37,299 nt of DNA, taken from a virus. Numbering within the stretch: the stretch's first letter is position 1; every line of letters begins with the position of its first letter. The DNA is taken from IMG/VR virus record IMGVR_UViG_3300046474_000174, positions 1-37,299 of that record; one strand, 5' to 3'. This document shows, piece after piece, positions 26,154 through 36,431 of this stretch. Made by a program: the position numbers and the translations under genes. The notes beneath the pieces are model-generated. The model was given only the letters and a program-made list of their open reading frames with translations, was not told where the DNA came from and searched no databases.

Positions 26154-26810
26154 TTATTCGACGATCAGCCAGTCCTCGGCCAGGGCATCGCTGCCGCTGG
26201 GCGCCCAGGTGCTCACGGTGTCATCGGCGCCCTTGAGCGCGAGGTAGGCGTTGTAGGGGACCATGCCGCCTTCGCCTAAGAAGGCTTTCGCGGCGCCCGT
26301 CTGCGCCGGGTAGCTGTTGGCCGGCACCAGGTAGGCGAACATGCCCTTGCCATTCCAGCCGGCGCGCGCCACGCGCTGGCCGGTCTTCAGCGCGGTCAGT
26401 GCGGTACCGAAGGTCAGGCCGGTGGGCGACGAATGCGCAGTCACGGTGCCGGCCGGCTCGTAGGTCGCCGCGAAGATGTCGGGTTTGCACGCGTAGTGCT
26501 CGCCCTGCACGCCGGTGATGATCCAGTCACCCGGGCACACGATGTGTCCGCCTTCCAGCGTCTCGATCCAACCGTGGTTATGCATGATGTCGCCGCAGTG
26601 CTTGCATGCCTGATAGCCGTCCATTTCCGGCGTACGGTAGCGACGCACGATAGACCCCTCCCAGTCGTTTTCACGGCGATGCACTGGGCTGAATTCACGC
26701 GGCTGGCCGTTCTCGAAGCCATGCACGACGGTCGCATAGTCCTCCGGATGGTCGCCGTTCTTGAACCACTGCGTTGCCTCGATGACGACGGGCTTTTTGC
26801 GAAATTCCAT
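26154..26810 (-). CDS. Two-domain protein with C-terminal Tad2-like (DUF2829) anti-defence domain, 218 aa
   Basis: Residues 1-118 form a small phage domain of unknown role: FRKKPVVIEATQWFKNGD, a possible zinc site CKHCG with later His residues, and LEGGHIVCPGDWIITGVQGE then KPDIFAATYEPA. Residues 131-218 match the DUF2829/Tad2 pattern: LTFGTALTALKTGQRVARAG, RAGWNGKGMF, and the ending STWAPSGSDALAEDWLIVE. Tad2 proteins are known to bind and sequester signalling nucleotides of Thoeris (and some CBASS) defence. Gene context is the leftward early operon, where anti-defence genes are commonly expressed soon after infection. The domain call is strong; activity is inferred. Confidence 0.85.
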   Translation of the reverse strand: MEFRKKPVVIEATQWFKNGDHPEDYATVVHGFENGQPREFSPVHRRENDWEGSIVRRYRTPEMDGYQACKHCGDIMHNHGWIETLEGGHIVCPGDWIITGVQGEHYACKPDIFAATYEPAGTVTAHSSPTGLTFGTALTALKTGQRVARAGWNGKGMFAYLVPANSYPAQTGAAKAFLGEGGMVPYNAYLALKGADDTVSTWAPSGSDALAEDWLIVE

Positions 26811-26819
26811 GTCTGCCTT

Positions 26820-27086
26820 TCAGGTTGTTGTCGTCCCCGCTTTTGCGGGAACCGTTGGTGCGCTCGCGCGCGAAATGGTCTCTCTACCCCTGCGCTGCTC
26901 CGGTGGCATCTGTGCTTTCCGGGTCTCCCACGCTCCCTGCTCGTTGAACAGGACGCAGCGCGGGTCGGTCGAGTGCACGGGCTTGTCGAAGCCCTCGCAG
27001 TGGCCTGGGCCGTCCTCGTTGCGCCGCTGGGATGCGGTCGGGATGAAGCGGGCACAGATGCGGCAGGGCAGCGGCTCGCGGTTCAT
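26820..27086 (-). CDS. Small zinc-finger-like protein, 88 aa
   Basis: ATG at 27086, coupled by ATGA to the DUF1376 gene. Cys/His residues are spaced as CRIC, GHCEGF, DKPVH and DPRCVLF, a likely single zinc site. Residues after about 55 are low complexity. The last codons (VPAKAGTTTT) are encoded by a short palindromic repeat (CCCGC-TTTT-GCGGG), suggesting that the reading frame has been extended by a repeat insertion. Function unknown. Confidence 0.65.
   Translation of the reverse strand: MNREPLPCRICARFIPTASQRRNEDGPGHCEGFDKPVHSTDPRCVLFNEQGAWETRKAQMPPEQRRGRETISRASAPTVPAKAGTTTT
26831..26853. repeat. REP-like palindrome, copy 1
   Basis: GTCCCCGC-TTTT-GCGGGAACC (within 26831-26853) resembles the palindrome at 33683-33702 and the short chromosomal REP-type repeats of many proteobacteria. 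It lies at the 3' end of the gene at 26820-27086. Confidence 0.5.
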
Positions 27087-28120
27087 GCGGCTCGGCCTCC
27101 GTTGCGCTGGGCCTGCTCGAACGCGGTGACGCGGGCTTGCCACTCGTCGTAGCTTTCGTCCGTGCCCTTCGGGTCGAGGCCCTGGGGCTTGCGTGGCGGG
27201 GCCGGTGGGACAGGTGCGGCGATTGCTGCCGCTGGTGCGCTCTGCTTCTGCAGGACGGTCTGCACGGCCTTGTCGAGGTAGACGAGCCCGATGGCCTCGC
27301 CTGGCTTGAACTGCCGTGCTCTGGCGATCGCTGCGGTCAGCACGTCCTTGGTGACGCGAGGTTCGGCAGCCCAGGCAAGCACGATGGCGTCGCCCGGCGT
27401 TGCGTCGATGCCGCCGTCTCGCAGCATGGTCACGATGGCGGTGACCCGCTTCGACTCCCGGGGGTGGTCGTCGTCGTCCGATTGCGGGCCGGCACCAACT
27501 TCGGTTGAGGCTTGAGACGACGATGAAGATTTAGAAGTTAACTGTCCCTGTCCCTCTCCCTGTCCCTTGGAGTGGTTTTCACCAGTGACATCGCTCGTTT
27601 GTCCTCGGGACATCTTGGATTTGTCGCTAGGGACAGGTAGCGGCTGTCCCACGGGACAACCAGCAGAAAGCCACGCATCGAATTCGGGAAACTGGATGCT
27701 TGTCCCGTGGCGCTCGTTGTGCTTCTTGATGCGCGCGCATTCGGTTTTCAGGCGCTGTCGCAGCTTCGCGGTCCAGGCTTCGTTGGCCTTTTCGGCGACG
27801 ACAGCGTGATACAACCGGCCATCGCTGCACTTCACCCAGCCACGCATGGCTCCGTCGCGAACCTTCAGCCATTCCTTCACGACGCGGCCGTAGCCGGCGT
27901 ACTGGGCCAGGACCTTGTCGTCATCGGGCAGGCTGGCGGCCGGGACCTGGTGCCAGGACGCGCACCACAGCAGCACGGCGCAGCGGAATTCGTCGGCCTC
28001 GGCTGTCACGGCCAGGTCGCTGTCGCGCAGGCGCACGACGTCGAGCGGCATGAAGGCGAAGTCGCGCAGGTCGCAGTCGGGCGGAGTGAGCGGCGCGGGC
28101 AGGTTGGACATGGCGTCCAT
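27083..28120 (-). CDS. DUF1376-family replication-associated protein, 345 aa
   Basis: The start at 28120 forms a TGATG overlap with the upstream stop. Residues 22-115 match DUF1376 (FMPLDVVRLRDSDL, AEADEFRCAVLLWCASWHQV, KVRDGAMRGWVKCSDGRLYH), a family related to phage replication proteins that are probably initiators or primosome-loading partners. The middle (about 160-235) is low-complexity Ser/Gly/Gln, and the C-terminal part has a helical domain (VTAIVTMLRDGGIDATPGD). The DNA for the linker contains many TGTCCC/GGGACA motifs, possibly the replication origin. No helicase or primase gene is adjacent, so host enzymes are probably used. Confidence 0.75.
   Translation of the reverse strand: MDAMSNLPAPLTPPDCDLRDFAFMPLDVVRLRDSDLAVTAEADEFRCAVLLWCASWHQVPAASLPDDDKVLAQYAGYGRVVKEWLKVRDGAMRGWVKCSDGRLYHAVVAEKANEAWTAKLRQRLKTECARIKKHNERHGTSIQFPEFDAWLSAGCPVGQPLPVPSDKSKMSRGQTSDVTGENHSKGQGEGQGQLTSKSSSSSQASTEVGAGPQSDDDDHPRESKRVTAIVTMLRDGGIDATPGDAIVLAWAAEPRVTKDVLTAAIARARQFKPGEAIGLVYLDKAVQTVLQKQSAPAAAIAAPVPPAPPRKPQGLDPKGTDESYDEWQARVTAFEQAQRNGGRAA
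27543..27706. repeat. Cluster of TGTCCC/GGGACA motifs, candidate origin iterons
   Basis: TGTCCC occurs at 27543, 27549, 27561, 27645 and 27701; its complement GGGACA occurs at 27607, 27630 and 27653. The pair at 27645-27658 forms TGTCCC-AC-GGGACA. Eight copies in 164 bp is far above chance. They lie in the low-complexity linker of the replication protein gene, as lambda ori lies inside gene O. Confidence 0.55.
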
Positions 28121-29333: not shown

Positions 29334-29565
29334 GGGATTCGGGATGGTTGGCGAGCTCGGGCCAGATGCGTTGCCAGTCGTCGGGGAACATCTCGCGGCG
29401 CGTGACCAAGCCGCCAGTCGCGGTCTCGATCGCCGCGCCGTAGATGACCGGGATCGGACGTGTTCCATCGGCCCAGCGGCTTACGTCTGGGGCATGCGCG
29501 CCTATAGCCTTGGCCAGTGCTGCTTGTCGGCCGCGCTCTTGGGAGAGGTAAGTTTTGATGTCCAT
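29323..29565 (-). CDS. cro: Cro/YdaS-type repressor, 80 aa
   Basis: ATG at 29565, divergent from the CI-like gene across the operator region. The N-terminal 45 residues form a helix-turn-helix typical of Cro/YdaS (MDIKTYLSQERGRQAALAKA, then GAHAPDVSRWADGTRPI), with a C-terminal extension (IWPELANHPESQPQ). The leftward promoter leaves only about one or two bases before the ATG, so the mRNA may be nearly leaderless. It should bind the same TAGCG-N3-CGCTA operators and promote the lytic programme. Confidence 0.8.
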   Translation of the reverse strand: MDIKTYLSQERGRQAALAKAIGAHAPDVSRWADGTRPIPVIYGAAIETATGGLVTRREMFPDDWQRIWPELANHPESQPQ

Positions 29566-29573
29566 GAGGACAG

Positions 29574-35741: not shown

Positions 35742-36431
35742 ATGAATGCCACCTCGAAAAACGAACAGAGCAGCCTCGCCGGCATGGGCGACGACGATCA
35801 GGCTCCAGGCCACATGATCGCGCGCGTCAGCGCCGTCGCCGTGAAGCTGGTATTCCCGTTCGCCGCGCAGCAGGACATCCGCTACTACCTGAACGGCGTG
35901 AACATCCGCCCGCTGAGCGACGGCACCGTGATGGTCGTTGCCAGCGACGGCCACCGCATCATCGTGGTCCGCGACCCGCACGGTTACGCCGAACGCGAAA
36001 TGATCGTCCGCGTCGACAAGGACGCCTTGAAGCACGCCAGCAACGCCAAGCACACCTTGGACGTCATGTCGAACGGCACCGCGATGTTCTCGGGCGAGGT
36101 GGCGCAGCCGCTGTTCATTCAGCCTGGTAACTCGCTGATCGACGGCGCGTTCCCGCGGGTTGAGCGCGTCATCAACACGTTCGGCTACCGTGAGGGCATC
36201 GCCGGCTCGGTCAATCCCGGTTACCTAGCCGACGCGCTGGCGATCGCCAAGAGCTTCGGCAACTCGATCCGCTTCTTCACGCGCGACGCCGATAGCCCGC
36301 TCAATTTCGTGCTGGGTGGCCTGGGCGACTTGGAATGCTTCGGCGGGATCATGAAGTTGCGCGACAACTTCGACGTGCTGCCGCGCTGGTTCCCGATGCC
36401 GGGTGAAGTCGACTCGCTGAACGACATCTGA
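35742..36431 (+). CDS. DnaN-like (sliding-clamp-related) protein, 229 aa
   Basis: Residues 36-80 match the central domain of the DNA polymerase III beta clamp: VFPFAAQQDIRYYLNGVNIR, then TVMVVASDGHRIIVV, which parallels the clamp motif 'QDVRYYLNG...TDGHRLA'. A second clamp-like domain follows (FIQPGNSLIDGAFPRVERVI). With about 230 residues it holds at most two of the three clamp domains. It could trimerise, or modulate the host clamp. It is in the recombination operon with a ribosome site (AGGAG) before the ATG. Confidence 0.75.
   Translation: MNATSKNEQSSLAGMGDDDQAPGHMIARVSAVAVKLVFPFAAQQDIRYYLNGVNIRPLSDGTVMVVASDGHRIIVVRDPHGYAEREMIVRVDKDALKHASNAKHTLDVMSNGTAMFSGEVAQPLFIQPGNSLIDGAFPRVERVINTFGYREGIAGSVNPGYLADALAIAKSFGNSIRFFTRDADSPLNFVLGGLGDLECFGGIMKLRDNFDVLPRWFPMPGEVDSLNDI

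Follow-up and report, generated by a model that had tools for sequence, protein, structure and literature searches.

A candidate phage replication origin within the linker-coding region of a DUF1376 gene

The window analysed here is a complete IMG/VR virus record of 37,299 nucleotides, and inside its putative replication gene one hexamer, TGTCCC/GGGACA, recurs eight times between positions 27543 and 27706. The locus raises the question of what such a cluster does within a coding sequence. The original prediction had proposed it as the phage origin, lying inside the initiator gene as in lambda. We assign a probability of about 0.86 to the reading that the cluster is a theta-type replication origin of the phage, bound by the product of its own DUF1376 gene.

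The array and the gene that contains it

Every predicted copy of the hexamer was found in place, with plus-strand TGTCCC starting at 27543, 27549, 27561, 27645 and 27701, and the inverted GGGACA at 27607, 27630 and 27653. The whole window contains 22 copies versus 15.9 expected. Eight of them fall within 0.44% of the sequence, in line with the predicted local enrichment, and the remaining 14 do not exceed expectation. No other 6-mer in the whole window exceeded five copies per 170 bp, and the array is thus its densest 6-mer cluster. Synonymous-codon shuffles of the gene, in which the protein was kept, gave a mean of 1.2 copies and a maximum of 6, and never eight in 10,000 shuffles. The copies fall in three codon phases and two orientations, indicating that amino-acid repeats are not their source and that the DNA rather than the peptide is constrained, as had been suggested. 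The encoded segment had also been described as low-complexity Gly/Gln/Ser; this is true of the part encoded by the tandem tail (GQGEGQGQLTSKSSSSSQ), whereas the dyads encode an ordinary-looking linker (CPVGQPLPVPSDKSKMSRGQTSDVTG).

The gene (27083–28120, minus strand) encodes a 345-residue DUF1376 protein, P0001, and its ATG start at 28120 is supported by a TGATG junction with the upstream gene. The protein matched PF07120 at residues 23–111 (E=1.5e-8; 35.3 bits versus a curated cut-off of 30.1) and, in PHROGs, 'replication protein' (E=4.5e-52) and 'primosomal protein' families. The Pfam scan of P0001 returned DUF1376 only, with neither a RepA_N nor a lambda O match, and a sequence search of the PDB gave nothing beyond a chance match (E=0.63). 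In the AlphaFold2 model, the DUF1376 domain (27788–28054, minus strand) adopted a winged-helix-like fold with pLDDT above 90 across nearly all of its length, and a long helix (residues 106–138; 27707–27805, minus strand) continued from this N-terminal domain. The nearest folds found by Foldseek for the N-terminal part were the RepA_N initiators 4pta and 5kbj, at an E of 0.3–0.4 and a TM score of ~0.4; the Foldseek E values, 0.3–1.5, were not significant. The linker encoded by the array DNA, residues ~160–219, was of low confidence and predicted to be disordered, and the domains on either side of it were modelled confidently. A helical C-terminal domain (residues 220–294; 27239–27463, minus strand) is a candidate recruiter of the helicase or primosome, by analogy with lambda O and pSK41 Rep.

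Downstream of the initiator gene lie genes for a Tad2-like protein, RusA and the terminase. The first of these (26154–26810, minus strand) belongs to the early operon, with the initiator gene on one side and RusA on the other, and its 218-residue product has at its end a Tad2-like domain, as in Thoeris anti-defence (E=4e-22). The window ORFs scanned included neither a helicase nor a loader gene. A 229-residue ORF at 35742–36431 (plus strand), adjoining YqaJ-type and RecT-like recombination genes, showed a weak match (E=2.9e-5, short of the curated cut-off) to the central domain of the sliding clamp, DNA polymerase III beta.

The cluster resolves into two elements, helically spaced dyads (27577–27658) and a 6-bp tandem tail (27542–27568). 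In gene order, 14-bp dyads of the form TGTCCC-NN-GGGACA recur every 22–23 bp and are followed by the purine-rich 6-bp tail and then by an AT-rich patch. An outlying single TGTCCC half-site (27701–27706, plus strand) encodes the Gly-Thr of HGTS. Four dyads of 13–14 bp start at gene positions 463, 486, 509 and 531, the first two being good matches and the last two degenerate. Dyad 1 (TGTCCCACGGGACA, 27645–27658, matrix score 20.8) is the composite palindrome of the original prediction, and dyad 2 (TGTCGCTAGGGACA, 27622–27635, score 21.1) lies 23 bp from it. Dyad 3 (TGTCCTCGGGACA, 27600–27612), 23 bp past dyad 2, is degenerate and one base shorter, and its low score of 5.7 results from the missing base. 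Dyad 4 (TTTCACCAGTGACA, 27577–27590, score 11.5), a further 22 bp on, is also degenerate; in a by-eye alignment with three relatives (L023, L083 and L097) its position is occupied by TGTCCCTCGGGAAA. The tail reads AAGGGACAGGGAGAGGGACAGGGACAG on the coding strand (27542–27568, minus strand). The adjoining patch (TTAACTTCTAAATCTTCATC, 27522–27541, minus strand) is a candidate DNA-unwinding element, with 61% AT over 36 nt versus 34% for the gene, a value reached in 0 of 100 codon shuffles.

A cumulative GC-skew minimum, anticipated for an origin, was not seen: the window has no extremum at the array, and its cumulative maximum lies at ~30–31 kb, where gene orientation changes. Averaging over 62 relatives gave a small shift that is confounded by the array's own composition. 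GC skew was set aside as uninformative in both the window and the relatives.

Layout and recognition words in related genes

We compared the array with a first set of 98 related genes from IMG/VR, GTDB genomes and phages. In 85 of the 98, codon shuffling gave a clustered hexamer the lowest attainable p, 0.01; it was mostly the same GGGACA word, located at nt 420–620 of the gene, down to ~45% protein identity. Wider sampling, by similarity to chosen queries, extended the set to 164 non-redundant genes, whose word classes were set by simple counting, six labels being changed after inspection. The words were TGTCCC (76 genes), TTCC-NNN-GGAA (36), TGTCAC/GTGA (21), GATCGC-type (8), GTCC-NNN-GGAC (6) and GCGACA (1), word class F being weakly supported; a clear word was absent in the remaining 16. 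Repeats at the same site in relatives, which the prediction had called for, are thus present, with the same word in many genes and a different one in others. The DUF1376 gene of Paracoccus phage Pben1 is without the linker and showed no clear array.

The spacing of the dyads was conserved along with their position. In class A (TGTCCC), the right half followed the left half at 8 bp in 90 cases, and the next dyad came 15 bp after that, giving a period of 23 bp. Dyad spacings were 23, 22, 11 and 45 bp for TGTCCC, 21, 22 and 33 bp for TTCC-NNN-GGAA, and 22 bp for GTCC-NNN-GGAC, and in every word class they approximated multiples of 11 bp, as expected of helical turns. With a class-A matrix trained without the window, site density in relatives was 11.1 per kb in the linkers and 0.009 per kb in flanking sequence.

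Operators for transcription of the operon, bound by the initiator or another phage factor, would also account for short, helically spaced palindromes, and the origin would then be located elsewhere. In the window, an isolated strong dyad (TGTCCATGAGGACA, 29559–29572, score 16.5) indeed adjoins the start of an S24-type repressor ORF. However, the sites of relatives are confined to the mid-gene linker, away from promoters, and the repressor-side dyad has no counterpart in the flanks of relatives. Furthermore, the dyads are always found together with the tail and the AT patch, and the coupling of five different words to a helix of the initiator itself (see below) points to self-recognition. We therefore regard operators as very unlikely. 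A general autoregulation model was dropped as well, the sites being nearly absent outside the linker.

The purine tail was kept across word classes, and its reading frame varied between genes (GQGQ, GTGTGT, DGDG). Whatever the word, the AT fraction in relatives was 0.52 in the 20 nt that follow the tail and 0.34 further on. Leucine was encoded by TTA in 59 of 120 cases (49%) just past the tail versus 65 of 4147 (1.6%) elsewhere. A 29-base pattern combining the tail with TTAA occurred at 18 loci in the entire IMG/VR collection, all 18 of them at a DUF1376 gene. In L051 and L056 the tail expands to 12 or more units, which resembles slippage and would suit an explanation in which the repeats are a by-product, arising from the low-complexity Gly/Gln linker and from repeat slippage in a genome rich in GC. 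Against this, codon shuffles never gave the observed count of copies, which lie in three phases on both strands; words switch along with the helix at constant spacing, and the tail is kept in other frames. Such a by-product has next to no chance of being the explanation.

A perfect hairpin with a stem of at least 7 bp, mostly within ~20 nt past the tail, was observed in ~19% of related genes (including L065, L093, L098, L218, L289–L292 and L304) versus 3.7% in codon shuffles, and the window is without one. In its commonest form a variable stem is closed by C(TNNC)G, with loops TGAC, TAAC, TATC, TGGC and TGTC. The stems vary in sequence and keep their complementarity, and the hairpin is possibly a single-strand priming element.

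In annotated relatives the gene is part of a replication module, its neighbours being DnaB (phi297), a DnaC-like loader with DnaB (Hali), a primase-helicase (CF3a, Ostro) or YdaV (Rac). A ParA-like protein is also encoded nearby in phi297, and dyad arrays are typical of partition sites too, as would be expected if the array were a parS-like centromere or the partition/incompatibility site of a plasmid-prophage. However, the window stretches scanned yielded neither a ParA nor a ParB gene, and the sites lie inside a replication gene, beside an AT-rich patch for which a centromere has no use. We consider a partition site highly improbable in place of the origin.

Association of the word with the N-terminal module

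Across 10,585 gene pairs, identity in residues 113–141 predicted whether two genes share a word with an AUC of 0.976, whereas identity in the DUF1376 domain was a weak predictor (0.755) and the C-terminus had no predictive value (0.501); shared ancestry is not corrected for in these values. The AUC of a sliding scan peaked at 0.97–0.98 at residues 121–138, the helix end (TECARIKKHNERH region), which is the best predictor of the DNA word, and then fell toward the array (0.90, 0.83, 0.68). This drop is inconsistent with a pure linkage gradient, but alignment quality drops there too, and the association between word and helix is partly confounded by close physical linkage.

The trees of the two modules gave different pictures. 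Within a set of 44 genes that have the same C-terminal type as the window, the DUF1376 tree required 3 changes of word class, the minimum for four classes, and the C-terminal tree required 13 or more. The few changes on one tree and the many on the other indicate that the N-terminal module and the dyads move together, and these associations suggest that the pair recombines against the C-terminal module. A specificity determined by a single residue beside the helix (HGT versus HAT/HGA) was also considered and was dropped, since those codons are themselves the first hexamer (GGGACA encoding Gly-Thr).

On balance, we lean slightly towards a broader reading in which a large family of DUF1376 phage initiators has in-gene origins, the helix end (residues ~121–138) reads the dyad, and helix and dyads swap as a cassette. 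Such a unit would recombine between phages with different C-terminal domains, and the code relating helix residues to dyad words would be readable from natural sequences.

For the origin itself we infer the following sequence of events. The origin would occupy the part of the gene that encodes the linker, predicted to be disordered, joining the DNA-binding domain to the C-terminal one. The winged-helix-like N-terminal domain, with its long basic helix, would bind the 14-bp dyads, probably in dimeric form; at the 22–23-bp spacing, the dimers would stack along a single face of the DNA helix. The nucleoprotein complex may then open the AT-rich patch beside the purine tail, and the C-terminal domain would recruit the host DnaB or primosome. 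Recruitment of host DnaB is presumed to be direct because no helicase or loader was found among the ORFs scanned in the record. Points that speak against the origin reading are the two degenerate dyads of the window, the related genes that show no clear word, and the lack of a GC-skew extremum at the array.

Comparison with known in-gene origins

Among the closest known layouts is the lambda origin, located inside gene O of lambdoid phages (PMC7466680, PMC8508860). In both systems the initiator gene carries, midway along its length, an AT-rich tract and repeats with internal dyad character, which are initiator-binding sites in lambda and candidate ones in the window. Both have four repeats, with a number that varies among relatives, and in both the repeat-bearing DNA codes for the linker between the DNA-binding and helicase-side domains. 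However, the window protein belongs to DUF1376 and is no lambda O homologue by Pfam; the comparison with lambda in the original prediction is borne out for the layout and fails for the protein. In addition, the repeats of the window are 14-bp dyads at 22–23 bp, the window's family has a conserved purine-rich 6-bp tail between the dyads and the AT patch, and no P-like loader was found in the window beside the initiator gene.

A second similar system is the pSK41-type RepA_N replicon, in which the Rep boxes lie centrally in rep and the origin-encoded linker is dispensable as protein (PMC5703833). In its Rep, a winged-helix domain at the N-terminus binds DNA, and primosome components are recruited by a helical domain at the C-terminus (PMC5703833). 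P0001 resembles it in the candidate in-gene origin encoding a linker and in the predicted helical C-terminus, and its predicted winged-helix-like N-terminus may have a similar fold. However, P0001 has no RepA_N Pfam match, and the A+T-rich bends of the pSK41 site (PMC5703833) contrast with the GC-rich palindromes and exchangeable words of DUF1376 genes. The best explanation by analogy is that the DUF1376 system would work like the lambda origin in O and like pSK41 RepA_N, while being a member of neither by sequence.

We found no study of DUF1376 function in the literature searched, and the family is annotated as unknown. Nothing found there on DUF1376, YdaU, oriJ mapping or in-gene origins of these phages maps or names this layout. 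New, as read from the sequences, would be a role for DUF1376, a layout shared across the family and recognition cassettes that can be exchanged. If the origin reading is true, many phages and prophages, the cryptic Rac included, could have their origin mapped and their initiator assigned by sequence alone. The family would then provide, on a single scaffold, five or more naturally occurring initiator/site specificities, with which one could study how the specificity of an origin changes even as that origin stays confined to a coding gene. For origin finding in general, codon-shuffle-resistant dyad arrays could be sought in initiator linkers.

The Rac prophage of E. coli K-12 has been reported to have an active origin, oriJ (PMC3945230), and its YdaU is a DUF1376 protein (E=2.7e-26) whose gene adjoins the DnaC-like gene ydaV. 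The ydaU linker contains TGTT-NN-AACA three times, at 33 and 23 bp, together with a purine tail and a C/G hairpin. YdaU thus shares the Pfam family and the in-linker layout of the window gene, but it differs in its word and has only 17% identity to the window protein over the N-terminal region. If helix and dyads do form a cassette, YdaU would mark the origin of Rac. In some Rac-like prophages (L430, L433 and L435), an insertion of ~110 residues follows the YdaU purine tail and replaces the hairpin. Two members of another DUF1376 subgroup (L452 and L453), with the helix end SRKxNAxRW, have the same purine tail preceded by direct repeats of 11 bp (CCCACAAGGAT), and these repeats are a candidate further recognition word.
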